Part shown: in pieces, positions 1,161-60,387 of the stretch
Numbering within the stretch: the stretch's first letter is position 1
How the letters are laid out: each line of letters starts with the position of its first letter
Assembly (NCBI GenBank): GCA_937905825.1
Contig: CALCXM010000187.1
Coordinates: forward strand, 1 to 64,000
Direction: 5' to 3'
DNA length: 64,000 nucleotides
Source: an uncultured bacterium
GTDB lineage: Bacteria > Planctomycetota > UBA1135 > GCA-002686595
Notes under the pieces: model-generated
Seen by the model: the letters and a program-made list of their open reading frames with translations, nothing else
Database searches by the model: none
Told to the model about the DNA's origin: nothing
Position numbers and translations under genes: made by a program

Positions 1161-4100
1161 TTAGGGTGCGATCTGGAAGCGCAGTGCGTTGGTGTGCCCC
1201 CAACCGGAACCGTCCGGGTGCGCGGGGTCTTTGTAGACGTACTGGGTGTAAACCGTCTGGCCCACCAAGAGTCCCTCGCTGCCCATCAACGCTTGGGAGT
1301 AGTGAACGTCAAAGGTGCCAGTGCAAGTTCCAGCGCTCCCCCCGGAGCTCGTGCTGACCAAGAACTTCGGGTTGAAGGCGCAGAAGTGCGTACCCAGCAG
1401 CGATGCGCCGAGACCGTTCTTGGTTCCCGAGTTGAAGCTCAGACTCGAAAGCAGGTAGCCGGGTTGCTGTCCAACGATGTTGGTCGCCGTCACGTGGAAA
1501 TCATCGCTGCCGCCGAGGGTCGGCTCGCCGGTCCAGTCGATGGCGGGTAGGCAACCGAGGGAGTTCAGCTTCGAGCCGCAGTAGGGAGTCGGGCCCGTGA
1601 AGTCGAAGTAGTACGAGCCGATGTCTGCTCTGGAGCCATCGGGGTCCGTCATCGATTGCGGGTTTGCCGCATCGATGCAGGGCGACGACACTTGCAAGTT
1701 GAGGTCACCGCCGGATTGGTCCACGAAGAGCGGGTCCATGTCGATGTTGCCTTTGCTCCCGGCGTGGGCCGCGGAACCGTTGCAGTAGCGCAGCGCACCC
1801 GGTCCGAAGCCCGAGAAGTTGGCTACTGTGTTCCCATAGGAAAGTGTGTCCACAACGCGACCGGTGAAGGCTGGTGCGCGATAAATGCCCTCTGTACCGC
1901 AGTTCGCCGCCGTCGAACGACGCAGGGTACAAGAGCCATTCGTCAGGGAGATGCCGCGCGTGCCGCAATCAAACGCAGTGAGGTGCGTTGGATCGGTCAC
2001 GACGTTCGCCTTGATGTCGAAGCCCATTTGCGTTGCGTGCCGAACCTCCACGTGATCCAAAACCGCATTCGCTGCATTGAGATCGAGGCCCGCGTAGTTC
2101 CCATTCCCCACGTAGTAGATCTTCGTATGGCGGAGAGTCAGGTTCGCCGAAGGGTAGGTATAGAACCCGCGCCAGTCCCCAGCACTTGCCGGAGGCCCAA
2201 CGCCGAGGTCCGAGTCACCAACGACATTGTCATCGTAGAAGGAAGTCAGGATGATCGGCGCCTCCGCGGTTCCTTCGAAGTGCAAACCACCGCTGATGCA
2301 CGTCAGGTGAATCGCAGGGTTGACCTTGATGATCATCCCCTCGCCGAACGTGATTGAGCTCGCGGCTCCGACGTTGATGCCGGTGGTCAGGTGCAAGAGG
2401 TCTCCAATCACGTTCTCAGCTCCCAAGACCACGTCGCCAACAGGAGTTGGGTTGGTCACTTGGGTATGATTGCCGCCCGCGTTGCCCAAAGCGATGTTGT
2501 CGCGGAAGTGCTCGAGGCTGTTCACGGAGATGTTCGTTGCAGCGATTCCCCCGTTGTCGCGGAAAGTGCACCCGGCAACAACAGCGCCGCCCGCACCGCC
2601 TAGCTGGTGCAACGCCGCACTCGAGCCTTTTTCCACAATTGAGTTCGTGATGGAGATCCCCACGGTGTTCAAGGAGATGCCCGCGTAGTTTCCGTTACCG
2701 GTGTAGCGCAGAACGGCGAAGTCGACTGTCGACCCCACGGCTGTGGGGTAGAAGTAAAGCCCGCGCCAAGAGCCAGGTGTTCCGGTTGTCGCTCCGTCCT
2801 TTGCCGTATCTCCGCCGATTTCGTCGTCATCCAGGGTCGTGATGATCACGGGTGCACCGGGAGTACCTGCGATCACGAGTTCTCCTTGAGAAATGACGTT
2901 TGTCGTGGACTCCATCTTGATGATCAGTCCCTCGCCAAGGGTCATGCGCTTGCCAACTGGGACCGAGAATTGCGTGGTGCTGACGACCAGCACGCCATTC
3001 AAGACGTTGGCGAGCTGAACTTCAAAATCCTGGGAGTGACTGTAGCTCGTCACCCGAATGTAGTCGCCGGACTGATTGCCAGAAGCTGTGTTGTCCAGCA
3101 GCCCGGGAACCGCCTGCAAGGGGCAGTTGTAGATGGGCAACCCGACGTTGTCGTGGATTGTGCTGTTGGACACCGTCGAGCCCACTGAGCCGCCGGAGAA
3201 GTCGATCCCACCGGTGCTGCTTTGATGAATATTGCAACCGTCAACACTGACGACCGCACCGCCGAAGGTGACCGCGCCGTAGTTGCCGTTCCCCGTGAAC
3301 TTGATCTCAGCATGCTCGATGCGCGAGGTACTGGCCGAGGGGTAGAAGTAGAAGCCGCGCCAGGACCCAGGGGTTCCCACCGTCGCGCCATCGCTGGCGG
3401 TATCGCCACCGACCGAGTCATCAGCCAATGTCGTAAAGACGACGGGCTCTAGTTCCGTTCCAAGCACATCCAGGAATCCCTGCGAGACGAGGTGCGTCGT
3501 CGACTCGATCTTCACGATCAAGCCCTGGGTCAGGGTCAGGCGCTTGCCCGCCGCGACGGAAAAAGTTGTGGTCCCGATGACCAGGACGCCGCCAATGCAG
3601 TTGCTCGGGGAAATGGTGAGATCTGCGCTGTGGGTGAAGGTGGTGATCCTGGCGTAGTCCCCTTCGGCGTTGCCAGTGGCGGTGTTCCCAGTGAAGTTTG
3701 GAAGCGTTTGAAGCGGCACTGACTGCATGGGCAGTCCCCCGTTGCCGGTGAACGAGCAACCCGTGATAACCGCCGTGTTGCCGTTCAGATTGATCCCGTG
3801 GCGAGAGCCGCTCGAGATGTCGACCGCATCGAGCTGAACCCCTCCACCGGTGATCTCGATCCCTGCGCCGTTGCCTCCACCGCTGAACCGAACCTCCACG
3901 TGGCTGTAAACGCTCGCCGACGAACTCGGGTACATGTAGATGCCGCGCCAGTCAGCCGGGGTGCCTGTCGAGGCACCGTCCAAGTTCGTGTCCCCGCCGA
4001 CGTCGTCCGAATAGGAAGTAAAGATGGCCGGGTTCCCGGGCGCTCCGTTGACCAGCAGAGTTCCCTGGGTAACCAACTGGCTGTTTGGTCGACCTTTCAC

Positions 4101-4307
4101 GATCGCGCCAGCCTGCACCGTGAGAGTCTTGCCCGCTGGCAAGGAGACGCCGCCGTTCAAGTGGTAGACCTGGCCCGACAAGAGGGGTCCAGTCGTGTCG
4201 TCAGAGATCGAGCCCGTTAGTTCGATTTGTGCCGACGCTAGCCCAGCGCAGTAGAAGGCGACCAAGGGCAGAAGGAACGAGTGGCGGCGAAACATTCGGA
4301 GATTCAT
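1161..4307 (-). CDS. Secreted parallel beta-helix surface protein
   Basis: This 1048-aa exported protein has a signal peptide (hydrophobic LLPLVAFYCAGLASA, cleavage expected before QIELTG). The body is four consecutive modules of about 200 residues. Each carries a strand marked by GKTLTV/GKRLTL, then G-I-I/L-V-K, then a block with DDxxGGDTxxDGAxxGTPxxWRG and YFYPSA/YMYPSS, ending in short runs of right-handed beta-helix with many Asn/Gly turns (TGNGNYAGI). From about residue 910 a distinct C-terminal module begins at TPYCGSKLNSLGCLP and ends in VYTQYVYKDP and SnALRF; the RCC1-like protein at 56662-58035 has a related end. The start at 4307 was chosen because it directly precedes the signal peptide. 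It is divergent from the kinase at 4412 across a 104-bp spacer. The role is probably surface adhesion or polymer binding (inferred); no catalytic residues are recognised. Confidence 0.85.
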   Translation of the reverse strand: MNLRMFRRHSFLLPLVAFYCAGLASAQIELTGSISDDTTGPLLSGQVYHLNGGVSLPAGKTLTVQAGAIVKGRPNSQLVTQGTLLVNGAPGNPAIFTSYSDDVGGDTNLDGASTGTPADWRGIYMYPSSSASVYSHVEVRFSGGGNGAGIEITGGGVQLDAVDISSGSRHGINLNGNTAVITGCSFTGNGGLPMQSVPLQTLPNFTGNTATGNAEGDYARITTFTHSADLTISPSNCIGGVLVIGTTTFSVAAGKRLTLTQGLIVKIESTTHLVSQGFLDVLGTELEPVVFTTLADDSVGGDTASDGATVGTPGSWRGFYFYPSASTSRIEHAEIKFTGNGNYGAVTFGGAVVSVDGCNIHQSSTGGIDFSGGSVGSTVSNSTIHDNVGLPIYNCPLQAVPGLLDNTASGNQSGDYIRVTSYSHSQDFEVQLANVLNGVLVVSTTQFSVPVGKRMTLGEGLIIKMESTTNVISQGELVIAGTPGAPVIITTLDDDEIGGDTAKDGATTGTPGSWRGLYFYPTAVGSTVDFAVLRYTGNGNYAGISLNTVGISITNSIVEKGSSAALHQLGGAGGAVVAGCTFRDNGGIAATNISVNSLEHFRDNIALGNAGGNHTQVTNPTPVGDVVLGAENVIGDLLHLTTGINVGAASSITFGEGMIIKVNPAIHLTCISGGLHFEGTAEAPIILTSFYDDNVVGDSDLGVGPPASAGDWRGFYTYPSANLTLRHTKIYYVGNGNYAGLDLNAANAVLDHVEVRHATQMGFDIKANVVTDPTHLTAFDCGTRGISLTNGSCTLRRSTAANCGTEGIYRAPAFTGRVVDTLSYGNTVANFSGFGPGALRYCNGSAAHAGSKGNIDMDPLFVDQSGGDLNLQVSSPCIDAANPQSMTDPDGSRADIGSYYFDFTGPTPYCGSKLNSLGCLPAIDWTGEPTLGGSDDFHVTATNIVGQQPGYLLSSLSFNSGTKNGLGASLLGTHFCAFNPKFLVSTSSGGSAGTCTGTFDVHYSQALMGSEGLLVGQTVYTQYVYKDPAHPDGSGWGHTNALRFQIAP

Positions 4308-4411: not shown

Positions 4412-7400
4412 ATGGTGAATGAGTCTTCGCGCCCGAATCCGACAAGGAATCCTGCTACAATTCCCCCCGTGGGTACGAACACTCCTGAAGAGCGCATTTT
4501 CGACGAGTTCTTTGACGCGATGCTCCGGGGCGAGATTCGCTCCCCGGAATATTTCCTAGCCAGCCGCGGTGACGTTCCCGAATCCTTGCGGGAGCACCTG
4601 CACGGTATCCATCGGATGCTCACCGAGGACAAGGCCGAGCCCGCTGTTAGCGCACCCCCCCTTGCGGCCGAGGACGGCATGCCCTGGGAGCAGCTCGGCG
4701 AGTTCCGGCTCGTGCGCAAACTTGGGGAAGGCGGAATGGGCGTCGTGTTCCTTGCCGAACAAGAGTCCCTTGGACGACTCGTGGCCCTCAAGATCTTGCG
4801 CCCCGACCTCTCCGCCTCGAGCAACGCGGCCATCAGGTTTGAGCGCGAGGCCCATGCCATCGCGCGCATGAACCACCCGCACATCGTGAAGGTCATCGCC
4901 TTCGGAGAGGACCAGGGCGTGAACTTCCTGGCCATGGAGTTGGCGCCCGGAAAAGACCTGGATGAGTTGCTGCAGGAATTGGCCGACCGCGGGGAGACCA
5001 TCGACATCCCCCGTGTTCTGCGATGGTGCGCGGACCTGGCGGACGCCCTACATTCCGCCCACGAACAGGGAGTGATCCATCGGGACGTCAAACCTTCCAA
5101 CGTGCGCATCACGCCGGATGATCGAGCCATGTTGCTCGACTTCGGAGTCGCCCGCGAACTGGAGTCCAATCAAGCGACATTGACTCGCTCCTTCCTCGGG
5201 TCCCCGGCCTATATGGCTCCCGAACAGATTGCGGCGAAGGGCGGCAAGGTCGACGCCCGAACCGATGTCTACGCCCTCGGCATCACCATGTATCAGTGCT
5301 TGACGGGCGCGCTGCCCTTTCGCCGGGAAACCCTCGAGGAAGTCTTCCACGACGTGCTTGTGGAGCCACCCGCTGCGCCGCGCAAGGCGCGACCGGAACT
5401 CTCGAATGACGTGGAAACGGTCATCCTGAAGGCCATCGACAAGGAGCCCGAGCAACGCTTCGTCGATGCAGCAGCCTTTGCCCGTGACCTGCGTGCGCTG
5501 CTCATGTTCCTGCCCATCGAAGCCCGACCGCCGGGCCCCCTCAAGCGCCTGGCCCGGGCGGCAAGACGGCATTCCGCGATAACGACTCTGTTGCTGGCCA
5601 CGCCGCTCGCACTGATCGCGTTCTTCGCAGTGCAGCAGATCGAGCGCAAGGTGGAACGCACCACCACCATCGAAGAAGCCCACGCGAAGATCGTGCAGTA
5701 CCGCAACGGCATCGAGGAGGCCCGCGAGCTGGGTGCTCGCGTTACGGAACTTCAGATGCGTGCGATGTCCGAATACCTGGCCCCCGAACGGGACCTGGAA
5801 CTCGACGCCTTCGAGGACCAAGTGCTCGCTGAACGTCGATCGCGGGAGGAGTCCTTCTACGCCATCCTCGACCTGATTCGGCGGGCGGCGGATCTCGATG
5901 CAGCCCCCGAGGCGATCACGGAATTGCGCGGACGGCTCTACATGGCGAAGTACATGGAGGTCATCGCCGCGGGAGATCCCCTGTTGCGCACGGTGTACCA
6001 CAACCTCGTGCAACGCAATGATCCCAAGGGCACGATCATGGGCGAGGAGGTCAACCCGGTCATGATCGAGATCGAGTGCAACGTGGAGGGAGCCAAGCTC
6101 TATCGCTTTCGCAGTGCACACGCCCGCGAAGAGCTAGGACAAACAGAGCGCCGGTGGGTTCCTGCTCCCCACGGAACCTCCCCGACGCCCGTCAAGCCCG
6201 GGACGTTTTGCTTGGTGTTGCTGGAAGACGCTCAAGGCTTGTACGCTGGCGACCTCGTGGTGAAAGTCGCGGGCCATGCGATTCGCGAGGCCATGTTGGT
6301 TTCCCAGGGTTCGGGGCAAGTGCAGCTCCACGACCGCTTGATCTCGATCGGCGGGCACCCGGTGCTTGGCCACTATGAAGTGGACATGTATGGCCGTCGG
6401 GACTCATACCTGCCGCGCCTCGGGTCGCCGACCGCTCAGGATTTCGTCTTTGAGAGGAACGGGCAACAGTTCACCGAGCGCGCAGCCGACTTGACCGAGC
6501 TTGGCATCGAAGTCGCAACGCCACGGGAAGTTGTGCAGGCAGGCGCCGTCGTGACGACGCTCTTCAGCCAGGGCGAACTGCACTCCAAGTTCCTCGAATC
6601 CGGATTGCGGGTCGACGAGACCGCGACTCCACTGATCTACTCAAAGGCTTCCTTGGTAGGGATCACCCCCTTGGGACCCTTCGACGTGGGCAACGAGAGC
6701 AGGCAGGTCCTCGTCCTGCGCGCACCGGGATACGAACCCCAATTGGTCCCGATAGATCAAAGGGGGCGGCGGATCGATCTATTGCCCCAGGGAACGTCCC
6801 CGGCGAAGTTTGTTCGCATAGTGGACCGCACCATGTCCACTCCGCTGGAGTCGGCCTACTTTTGGATGCGACGTCACGAGGTCACTTTTGGGGAGTACCT
6901 CGAGTTCCTCAATGATCCGGAAACCCAGCGCGAGGTTGGCGAATCGGAGACTCCCATTCGGCGGCCCCGGGGTGGACCTGGGCAGTCAAAGGACTTGTGC
7001 CGCAGAAATCCCGATGGGTCCTTTCAGTTGCGACCCAACTGGCCCGCAGAAGTCCCCGTCTTTGGCGTTTCCTGGTACGACGCGCAAGCTTACGCGAAGT
7101 GGAAAACCGCCAAGGCCAAGGCCGCCGGACTTCCCCACGTCTACTCCCTACCGAAAGAGCACGAATGGATGAGTTCCGCGGGCCCCCATCAGAAGTTTCT
7201 GTACGGGGACCGCTTCCATCCAAAGTGGACAAGCTCCTGTTTCTCCAAGCCCCTTCCCTATCCGCAGCGTGTGATGAGCTATCCGATCGATCGTTCCCTT
7301 TCGGGTGTGTTCGACGTTTGCGGAAACGTGTCGGAGTGGCTCGACGCCTGGTGGGTCGAAGAGCAGGACCGCCGCTGGCACGTCGGGGGCGCCTGGTCGG

Positions 7401-7507
7401 ATGGGGGGCCCGCCAGCATGTTCCAAGTCTCAGGTGGCAATGGATCGCGCCCGGAAGAAGTCTTCGACCAGATCGGCTTTCGCCTCGTCATGCACATGGA
7501 CTCTTGA
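4412..7507 (+). CDS. Ser/Thr protein kinase with C-terminal FGE/sulfatase-modifying-factor domain
   Basis: This 1031-aa transmembrane kinase has all catalytic motifs: glycine loop GEGGMG at about 105-110, ATP Lys at 127 (VALK), HRDVKPSN with Asp225, DFG at 243-245, and an APE at about 269-271. One hydrophobic helix follows at about 389-408, then a charged coiled-coil-like stretch (about 410-500). An uncharacterised region has a PDZ-like flavour around residues 600-700 (GDLVVKVAG, LISIGGHPV). The C-terminal about 220 residues carry FGE/SUMF1-type motifs (VSWYDAQAYAKW, LPKEHEWMSS, GVFDVCGNVSEWLD, HVGGAWSDGG, IGFRLV). In kinases this domain is usually a non-catalytic ligand module; whether it oxidises cysteine is unknown. 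Start ATG 4412 is used; GTG at 4469 is an alternative. It is divergent from the beta-helix protein. Confidence 0.9.
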   Translation: MVNESSRPNPTRNPATIPPVGTNTPEERIFDEFFDAMLRGEIRSPEYFLASRGDVPESLREHLHGIHRMLTEDKAEPAVSAPPLAAEDGMPWEQLGEFRLVRKLGEGGMGVVFLAEQESLGRLVALKILRPDLSASSNAAIRFEREAHAIARMNHPHIVKVIAFGEDQGVNFLAMELAPGKDLDELLQELADRGETIDIPRVLRWCADLADALHSAHEQGVIHRDVKPSNVRITPDDRAMLLDFGVARELESNQATLTRSFLGSPAYMAPEQIAAKGGKVDARTDVYALGITMYQCLTGALPFRRETLEEVFHDVLVEPPAAPRKARPELSNDVETVILKAIDKEPEQRFVDAAAFARDLRALLMFLPIEARPPGPLKRLARAARRHSAITTLLLATPLALIAFFAVQQIERKVERTTTIEEAHAKIVQYRNGIEEARELGARVTELQMRAMSEYLAPERDLELDAFEDQVLAERRSREESFYAILDLIRRAADLDAAPEAITELRGRLYMAKYMEVIAAGDPLLRTVYHNLVQRNDPKGTIMGEEVNPVMIEIECNVEGAKLYRFRSAHAREELGQTERRWVPAPHGTSPTPVKPGTFCLVLLEDAQGLYAGDLVVKVAGHAIREAMLVSQGSGQVQLHDRLISIGGHPVLGHYEVDMYGRRDSYLPRLGSPTAQDFVFERNGQQFTERAADLTELGIEVATPREVVQAGAVVTTLFSQGELHSKFLESGLRVDETATPLIYSKASLVGITPLGPFDVGNESRQVLVLRAPGYEPQLVPIDQRGRRIDLLPQGTSPAKFVRIVDRTMSTPLESAYFWMRRHEVTFGEYLEFLNDPETQREVGESETPIRRPRGGPGQSKDLCRRNPDGSFQLRPNWPAEVPVFGVSWYDAQAYAKWKTAKAKAAGLPHVYSLPKEHEWMSSAGPHQKFLYGDRFHPKWTSSCFSKPLPYPQRVMSYPIDRSLSGVFDVCGNVSEWLDAWWVEEQDRRWHVGGAWSDGGPASMFQVSGGNGSRPEEVFDQIGFRLVMHMDS

Positions 7508-56661: not shown

Positions 56662-58035
56662 ATGACTTCAAACCTCGCTCGCACTTCTTCCTCCCTTCCG
56701 CTTGGGGTCCTTCTTTCCGTTTGCTTCCTCGCAGGTCCGGGGACGGCCCAGGGCCGCATCCATGGCTGGGGCTCGGACCTTGAAGGACAGATCAGCAACA
56801 TTCCCGCGGGCAACGACTTCATCAAGGTCGCAGGCGGCGGAGTGAATGCCTTGGCCCTGCGCGCCGACGGCACCTTGGCCGCATGGGGACACGACATCAA
56901 CAACCAGGTCTCAGACACGCCGACGGGAAACGATTTCGTCGACATCGCACGGAGTTCGACTCACTCCCTGGCCTTGCGTTCGGACGGAACCCTCGCCTCC
57001 TGGGGAGCGAACATCTTCGGTACTGTGACCCAAACACCGACTCTGGATGGGTTCGTCGACATCGCCACGGGCAGGAACTTTTCCGTCGCGGTACGCTCCA
57101 ACCGAAGAGTTCTCAGGTGGGGCGACGATAGCCAGGGCATCATCTCCCAGGGACCCACGGCTCCACGTTATTTGGCAGTCGGTTGCGGGGAAAGCGGCGC
57201 GATCGCCTTGCGAGAAGACAGCTCACTGACGGCCTGGGGCAACGCCGGCCCCGGTGCACCGACCAGCCCTGGCTTCGCCCAGATGGATGGGGGCCAGCAG
57301 CACTTCGTCGCCCTACGAACGGACGGGACCATTGGCGCCTGGGGCTCCGACTTGTATGGGGCTGTATCGGCAGCGCCCACCACGGCAGGCTTCAAGCAAG
57401 TCTGCGCGACGAAGCTCACCTCCTTTGCCTTGCGTGAGGACGGAACCATCGTCTCCTGGGGGTTGGACCAGCAGGGCCTCATCACGGATACGCCGACCTT
57501 CGACAACGTCCTCTTCATAGACGGCGGAGTGGACACGGTGTACGCCATTCGGGCTGACAACCGCGGCACGAGCTATTGCGCCGGTGATGGAAGCGGTGGA
57601 GCTTGTCCTTGCGCCAACAATGGTTCAGCCGGTCATGGCTGTGCGAACTCAACGGGCAACGGCGGAGCGCAACTAACGGCCTACGGCGACGCGTCCTACC
57701 TCCTGGATAGCTTTGGCTTCGACGTCGAAGGCGTCCCCGCCAACTCACCTGGATTGCTTTTGCGAGGAGCGAACCAACTCAACCAAGGCTCGGGCAACGC
57801 CCTCGGCAGTGGACTGCTCTGCTTGGGTGGCTCCGTCATGCGCTCTCAGTTGCAGGTGTCTACACCTTGGGGAACCACGAGTTTCATCGATTTCAACGGT
57901 GCTCCATTTGTGTCAACAGCCCTGGGAGTCGGCACCCCTATCCAATACCAGTTCTGGTACCGCGACAACGCCAGTACCTGCGCCGGCGGAGCCTTCAACT
58001 TCAGCAACGGCTGGGTTGTCGAGTGGCAGTTGTAA
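56662..58035 (+). CDS. Secreted RCC1-like beta-propeller surface protein
   Basis: This 457-aa exported protein has a signal peptide (LPLGVLLSVCFLAGPGTAQ). Residues about 30-310 hold seven repeats of about 40 residues with the RCC1 pattern (GRIHGWGSDLEGQISNIPAGNDFIKVAGGGVNALALRADGTLAAWG, repeated as HSLALRSDGTLASWG, HFVALRTDGTIGAWG, TSFALREDGTIVSWG). From about 312 a C-terminal module follows: GTSYCAGDGSGGACPCANNGSAGHGCANS, a Gly-rich beta part, and QYQFWYRD with FSNGWVVEW at the end. This module is related to the end of the beta-helix protein at 1161-4307. A truncated relative lies at 60121. The role is probably surface binding (inferred). Confidence 0.88.
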   Translation: MTSNLARTSSSLPLGVLLSVCFLAGPGTAQGRIHGWGSDLEGQISNIPAGNDFIKVAGGGVNALALRADGTLAAWGHDINNQVSDTPTGNDFVDIARSSTHSLALRSDGTLASWGANIFGTVTQTPTLDGFVDIATGRNFSVAVRSNRRVLRWGDDSQGIISQGPTAPRYLAVGCGESGAIALREDSSLTAWGNAGPGAPTSPGFAQMDGGQQHFVALRTDGTIGAWGSDLYGAVSAAPTTAGFKQVCATKLTSFALREDGTIVSWGLDQQGLITDTPTFDNVLFIDGGVDTVYAIRADNRGTSYCAGDGSGGACPCANNGSAGHGCANSTGNGGAQLTAYGDASYLLDSFGFDVEGVPANSPGLLLRGANQLNQGSGNALGSGLLCLGGSVMRSQLQVSTPWGTTSFIDFNGAPFVSTALGVGTPIQYQFWYRDNASTCAGGAFNFSNGWVVEWQL

Positions 58036-59937: not shown

Positions 59938-60120
59938 TCGGTGTGGCGATGGAGTCAGCGCCGACAACAATTGGGAAGTCCCGTCCCCATCCTCTCAAGC
60001 GGAGCAGTCAGCGGAGCGCGGCCGTGCGGGGTCGAATCGGGATGGCGAGGTACACCTTGAATGATATCCTCGACTCTTGGTTCTCGCTGCCGCTCTCGGA
60101 ACCACACCTGGAGAATTGCA

Positions 60121-60387
60121 ATGGCTCGGAATTCAGCTCGCCCTGGATCCCTTCGCTCATTCGCCGCTGCTTGCACCGCCCTCGTGCTTGGTGGCCTCGC
60201 GTCCGTACAAACCCAAGGGCGAATTCATGCCTGGGATTCTGCTGAGCACGAACAGTTCAGCACCCTCTCTAGCGGGAACGACTTCATCCAAATCGCGGGC
60301 GGCGGGAGCGCGAATCCAGCGCGCAAACTTCACGCGCAAGACCTCACCCCGTCGGCGGACAAGATCACGCCGGTGCTCGGGGCTTAG
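60121..60387 (+). pseudogene. Truncated RCC1-like surface protein gene
   Basis: The frame starts MARNSARPGS with a signal peptide (AAACTALVLGGLASVQTQ), then GRIHAWDSAEHEQFSTLSSGNDFIQIAGGGSA. This aligns with residues about 30-62 of the intact RCC1-like protein at 56662. Similarity stops abruptly near 60313. The remaining 25 codons are unrelated and run into the 3-prime end of the convergent SDR gene. About 400 residues are missing, so this is a 5-prime remnant of a paralogue, probably left by deletion or recombination at the SDR gene end. Confidence 0.8.

Follow-up and report, generated by a model that had tools for sequence, protein, structure and literature searches.

Cargo proteins of the type IX secretion system (T9SS) carry a Sec signal peptide at the N terminus and a conserved beta-sandwich C-terminal domain (CTD) at the extreme C terminus (PMC4560394, PMC12618676), and PEP-CTERM proteins have a C-terminal homology region in common although, as a large set of exported proteins, they differ in their N-terminal parts (PMC1569441). 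Two proteins encoded in the window, the 64,000-nucleotide stretch of planctomycete DNA analysed here, end in a module that can be compared with both systems. Like the T9SS CTD (Por secretion tail, TIGR04183 / PF18962), the module combines an N-terminal Sec signal, a predicted C-terminal beta-sandwich and many unrelated cargos; unlike that CTD, which spans roughly 70-100 amino acids, it is about 140 amino acids long, is predicted to be stapled by cysteines and bears a QxWYRD/NLSDA signature. As in PEP-CTERM, one C-terminal region is placed on a wide range of exported proteins whose N-terminal parts differ, but a PEP-CTERM signal is a short tail with a transmembrane helix and a basic end, whereas the module is a folded domain of 140 amino acids. 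It also resembles carbohydrate-binding modules (CBMs) and Ig-like adhesin domains in being a beta-sandwich on secreted hydrolases and repeat proteins, but unlike them it is never tandem and never N-terminal.

A C-terminal sorting domain is therefore a known kind of element, and it is the family, the fold details and the lineage of this one that are uncatalogued in the sources searched. The preliminary description had proposed that the module might be an undescribed secretion signal, and within what was searched the novelty holds: neither Pfam nor NCBIfam contains a model for it, and the open-access literature searched contained no description of the domain.

Two host proteins with related C-terminal modules

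The open reading frames (ORFs) of both host proteins, as well as a truncated paralogue of the second, are present at the following positions.

1161..4307, minus strand: host protein 1 (P0001), 1048 aa; signal peptide, Beta_helix repeats and C-terminal module (ORF translation; Pfam PF13229)
4230..4307, minus strand: signal-peptide-like N terminus of host protein 1, MNLRMFRRHSFLLPLVAFYCAGLASA (direct reading and heuristic rule)
1164..1583, minus strand: module of host protein 1, subtype A, aa 909-1048 (140 aa) (BLASTP; profile E=1.5e-39; AF2 pLDDT 87.6)
56662..58035, plus strand: host protein 2 (P0002), 457 aa; signal peptide, RCC1-type propeller and C-terminal module (ORF translation; Pfam PF13540)
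56662..56751, plus strand: signal-peptide-like N terminus of host protein 2, MTSNLARTSSSLPLGVLLSVCFLAGPGTAQ (direct reading and heuristic rule)
57574..58032, plus strand: module of host protein 2, long Cys-rich subtype, aa 305-457 (153 aa) (BLASTP; profile E=1.7e-42; AF2 pLDDT 76)
60061..60387, plus strand: truncated RCC1 paralogue; signal peptide and first RCC1 repeat, without the module (QGRIHAWDSAEHEQFSTLSSGNDFIQIAGGG resembles QGRIHGWGSDLEGQISNIPAGNDFIKVAGGG of host protein 2)

The N-terminal parts of the two hosts are unrelated. A Pfam scan assigned four Beta_helix stretches to host protein 1 (PF13229, E=1.3e-17) and six RCC1_2 repeats to host protein 2 (PF13540, E=1.5e-28), which bears out the earlier claim of attachment to different N-terminal architectures, and the last 140-153 residues of both proteins were covered by no Pfam or NCBIfam model. 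Adjoining the beta-helix gene, an ORF at 4412-7507 (plus strand) appears by eye to join a Ser/Thr kinase-like N terminus to a formylglycine-generating-enzyme/sulfatase-modifying-like domain. The truncated paralogue lies a short way downstream of the intact gene for host protein 2 and is probably a gene remnant of the same, amplifying RCC1 family.

Comparison of the two modules by BLASTP revealed 29% identity over 96 amino acids (E=0.001). A profile built without the subtype of host protein 1 still matched module 1 (E=2.9e-19), as did a profile built without the subtype of host protein 2 when matched to module 2 (E=4e-25); among 500 shuffled sequences used as a control for these leave-subtype-out profiles, the lowest E was 0.1. 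Single-module searches of the genome with either module also met a common third gene, G000:C45:22487-22870 (E=1.4e-14 and 2.6e-7). The leave-subtype-out matches lie far beyond those of shuffled sequences and a third gene is shared; the likeness between the two modules is homology. The similarity described at the outset is thus upheld, as are its landmarks, all of which we found: a YC start, GC, a Gly/Asn-rich beta part, the segment (L/V)G(Q/T)xVxxQ(Y/F)xY(K/R)D and a final (S/T)N strand.

Copy number, placement and cargo

When the module of the RCC1 protein was used as the sole query, it was found at no fewer than 150 places in the 6.37-Mb assembly (209 candidates). A profile of 26 sequences likewise returned at least 150 places (272 candidates), with E <=1.7e-18 throughout among the matches listed. 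The union of the searches, counted by hand, comprises at least 181 genome places (180 distinct, plus one module ORF found separately). Some copies lie together: at G000:C94:56-63 kb and at G000:C34:1-13 kb several module genes, most of them of the RCC1 type, are clustered, which suggests tandem amplification. One copy, at G000:C152:91603-91974, has decayed and contains in-frame stops.

To place the module within the phylum, we used a sample of 294 Planctomycetota genomes, 11 from the same GTDB family and 283 from others. All 11 family genomes carried the module, nine of them with at least 14 matches; in other families it was present in 22 of 283 genomes, at 1-13 copies each and mostly few. Among 84,980 species genomes scanned, 210 relatives were recovered, and the best 80 of these 210 came from planctomycete metagenome-assembled genomes or from records labelled only as bacterium. 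A general sorting system would not usually be represented by only one or a few copies, as the module is in members of other planctomycete families, and this counts against such a role.

The position of the module is strict. Among 280 distinct module ORFs collected from module loci, the module ended within five residues of the stop codon in 275, and none contained two modules; it was again C-terminal in distant members of the phylum that have few copies. A signal-peptide-like start was present in 128 of the 138 own-genome module ORFs with a defined upstream stop, as judged by a lenient home-made heuristic that also accepted 12 of 27 other genes in the window, several of which are plausibly exported themselves.

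The proteins upstream of the module are diverse. BLAST grouped 137 N-terminal parts into 65 clusters, and Pfam assigned to their representatives peptidases (subtilase S8, M12, M10, M43 and M64), endonuclease I (Endonuclease_1), Arylsulfotransferase, GSDH, Kelch, FG-GAP, LamG and CBM96 families, as well as beta-helix and YHYH; RCC1 is likewise among the cargo types. Peptidases, endonuclease I, FG-GAP proteins and beta-helix proteins are also cargo of T9SS, and by this analogy the cargo list of the module resembles that of type IX secretion. The search of the genome and of related planctomycetes thus returned many exported proteins that differ in their N-terminal parts and bear the module at the C terminus, the outcome that the preliminary description had named as supporting a sorting domain.

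Individual module subtypes are spread across many N-terminal clusters (long, 35; C, 26; A, 10), and, considering clusters of two or more, the nearest module sits on an unrelated N-terminal part for 51 of 90 modules. On these two observations, the module is passed between genes largely independently of the part to which it is attached. This mobility bears on the idea that the module is an intramolecular cap or propeptide-like folding aid, which would stabilize repeat proteins and enzymes at their C-terminal end and have no targeting role. Many hosts are indeed repeat propellers and beta-helices, structures with open ends that require a cap, but a cap would be expected to co-evolve with the domain it caps, whereas more than half of the nearest modules are on a different N-terminal cluster, and the module also follows globular enzymes. 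We therefore regard a cap as highly improbable.

Cysteine pattern and predicted fold

Alignment of the modules revealed a near-invariant core consisting of YC, NS.G, G, G(L/I), G, LC, R, G, Q.W(Y/F)RD and (S/T)(D/N). Three subtypes, long, A and C, are told apart by their cysteines. The long subtype has an extra CPC...GC and a late Cys, and in host protein 2 reads YC.GDG....CPC....GC.NS ... LC ... YRD ... FNFSN. Subtype A has NSxGC and CxG, and in host protein 1 reads YC..K.NS.GC ... FC ... C.G ... G-x5-Q-x3-KD ... TNA; subtype C has NSTG.

The cysteines occur in sets. YC was always accompanied by LC (247 of 247 modules), and GC co-occurred with CxG (phi 0.98). A Cys about six residues upstream of YC and the terminal Cys of ...FCP were both present in 83 modules and both absent from 116, with one only in 37 (odds ratio 41), although these co-occurrence counts are raw and uncorrected for relatedness. 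The covariation predicts disulfides inside the module, one of which would staple its two ends together, and disulfides in turn imply an oxidizing, exported site. Odd Cys counts had prompted us to consider a free terminal Cys as a covalent anchor; this was set aside on finding that the terminal Cys covaries with the one about six residues before YC.

The modules are rich in Cys (3.2%) and poor in Lys (0.8%) and Glu (1.2%), and by the 19-residue Kyte-Doolittle mean, 266 of 274 have no transmembrane-grade segment, with the other 8 exceeding 1.6. The high Cys and low Lys contents, together with the huge copy number and an Ig-like fold, might suit a structural domain of a disulfide-rich protein wall or S-layer-like coat, in which modules pack or cross-link and so build their proteins in. 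However, the cysteines seem to pair with one another inside the module (YC-LC, GC-CxG and upstream-terminal), which leaves no conserved free Cys for cross-linking, and subtilases and an endonuclease would be odd components of a wall. A wall domain is accordingly an improbable explanation.

AlphaFold2 models built with 47 sequences predicted an almost all-beta sandwich for the module of the beta-helix protein (pLDDT 87.6, pTM 0.81) and an all-beta sandwich for that of the RCC1 protein (pLDDT 76.3, pTM 0.74), in which the Cys-rich loop is uncertain and of low confidence. The predicted fold is an Ig-like beta-sandwich. Foldseek matched nothing in the PDB at E<=0.001; the best matches were Ig-like domains of complement C3 (E 1.3e-3, TM 0.54; other best E 1.7e-2), and weak neighbours included a porphyran-binding CBM (8wae, rank 39, E=0.038, TM 0.37/0.46) and LaX325/LPMO-like sandwiches. 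A PDB sequence search with the module gave chance-level matches only, mostly antibodies (E>=0.15).

These structural neighbours bring in a further possibility, that the module is a CBM- or lectin-like domain that binds glycans or other ligands and holds secreted enzymes and adhesins to a polysaccharide, either from the matrix of the cell itself or from its food. A beta-sandwich with such neighbours, a near-invariant aromatic and charged QxWYRD segment and the many cargos that are hydrolases or bear CBMs are consistent with binding, and a C-terminal binding domain would yield much of the same pattern as a sorting tag. CBMs are commonly tandem, N-terminal or internal, however, a placement unlike that of a module with no tandem copies that lies at the extreme C terminus in nearly every ORF, and the proteases, endonuclease and RCC1 and kelch propellers among the cargo have no common substrate. 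In addition, the module had no Pfam CBM match, no significant Foldseek CBM match (complement C3 ranked best) and no significant sequence match. Glycan binding thus seems rather unlikely, and the strict single-copy, extreme C-terminal placement leads us to favour sorting or anchoring over it.

Proposed role and candidate partners

We think it somewhat probable that the module is a folded C-terminal sorting or anchoring tag that routes or retains exported proteins of one planctomycete lineage. Strict C-terminal position, single copy, an N-terminal export signal and unrelated cargo all favour a sorting or retention tag. In this model, the N-terminal signal peptide would take the protein through Sec, and the C-terminal module would fold and oxidize in the periplasm. 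A component of the envelope, either a receptor or a translocon, might then recognize the folded module, after which the protein would be moved across the outer membrane, held on the cell surface, or both, so that its end point may be the surface or the outside. Of the roles first suggested, sorting, anchoring or glycan binding, the genome and phylum pattern favours sorting or anchoring; the analysis turned up neither a machinery nor a processing site or ligand.

The closest parallel is T9SS, in which the CTD is cleaved off at the surface and the cargo is either linked to lipid or released. The T9SS-type combination of a Sec signal peptide with an extreme C-terminal domain on diverse cargo was present, but the T9SS CTD models PF18962 and TIGR04183 had no match in 47 modules (Pfam-A and NCBIfam, E<=1), and membership of the module in T9SS was rejected on this ground. 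SprA (TIGR04189) was undetected in the module's own genome and 10 other family genomes, and across the phylum the model gave only two sub-threshold fragments, in searches in which no control genome gave a match either. The best reading is that the module acts like a T9SS CTD by analogy, with no relation in sequence. More tentatively, the module may be the recognition signal of an undescribed planctomycete outer-membrane secretion or surface-attachment system, unrelated to T9SS or exosortase and handling a large part of the proteins that are exported (no fewer than 181 in this genome). Dedicated neighbour genes were dismissed as partners, as no gene family recurred beside the few-copy module loci.

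To our knowledge, how planctomycete proteins move to the cell surface is largely unknown. With the module, at least 181 proteins of one genome, nearly all of them apparently exported, gain a recognizable handle that is absent from curated annotation libraries. Hundreds of 'hypothetical' proteins could thereby receive an annotation as exported cargo, and a search for the partner machinery becomes directly testable.

The PEP-CTERM combination of a short motif, a transmembrane helix and a basic C-terminal tail was absent from the modules, whose tails read, for example, TFCP or TWLP. Exosortase (PF09721) was not found in 8 of the 11 module-bearing family genomes, including the copy-rich G293 and G268, and was therefore rejected as an obligatory partner. 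It was present in 3 of 11 genomes of the module-rich family versus 112 of 283 other genomes of the phylum, a difference in frequency from which it is possible that this family has largely replaced exosortase sorting. The sole exosortase detected in the module's own genome (G000:C58, about 46-50 kb) is fused to a CPBP-like protease and lies convergent to a gene for an FG-GAP protein that ends in the module.
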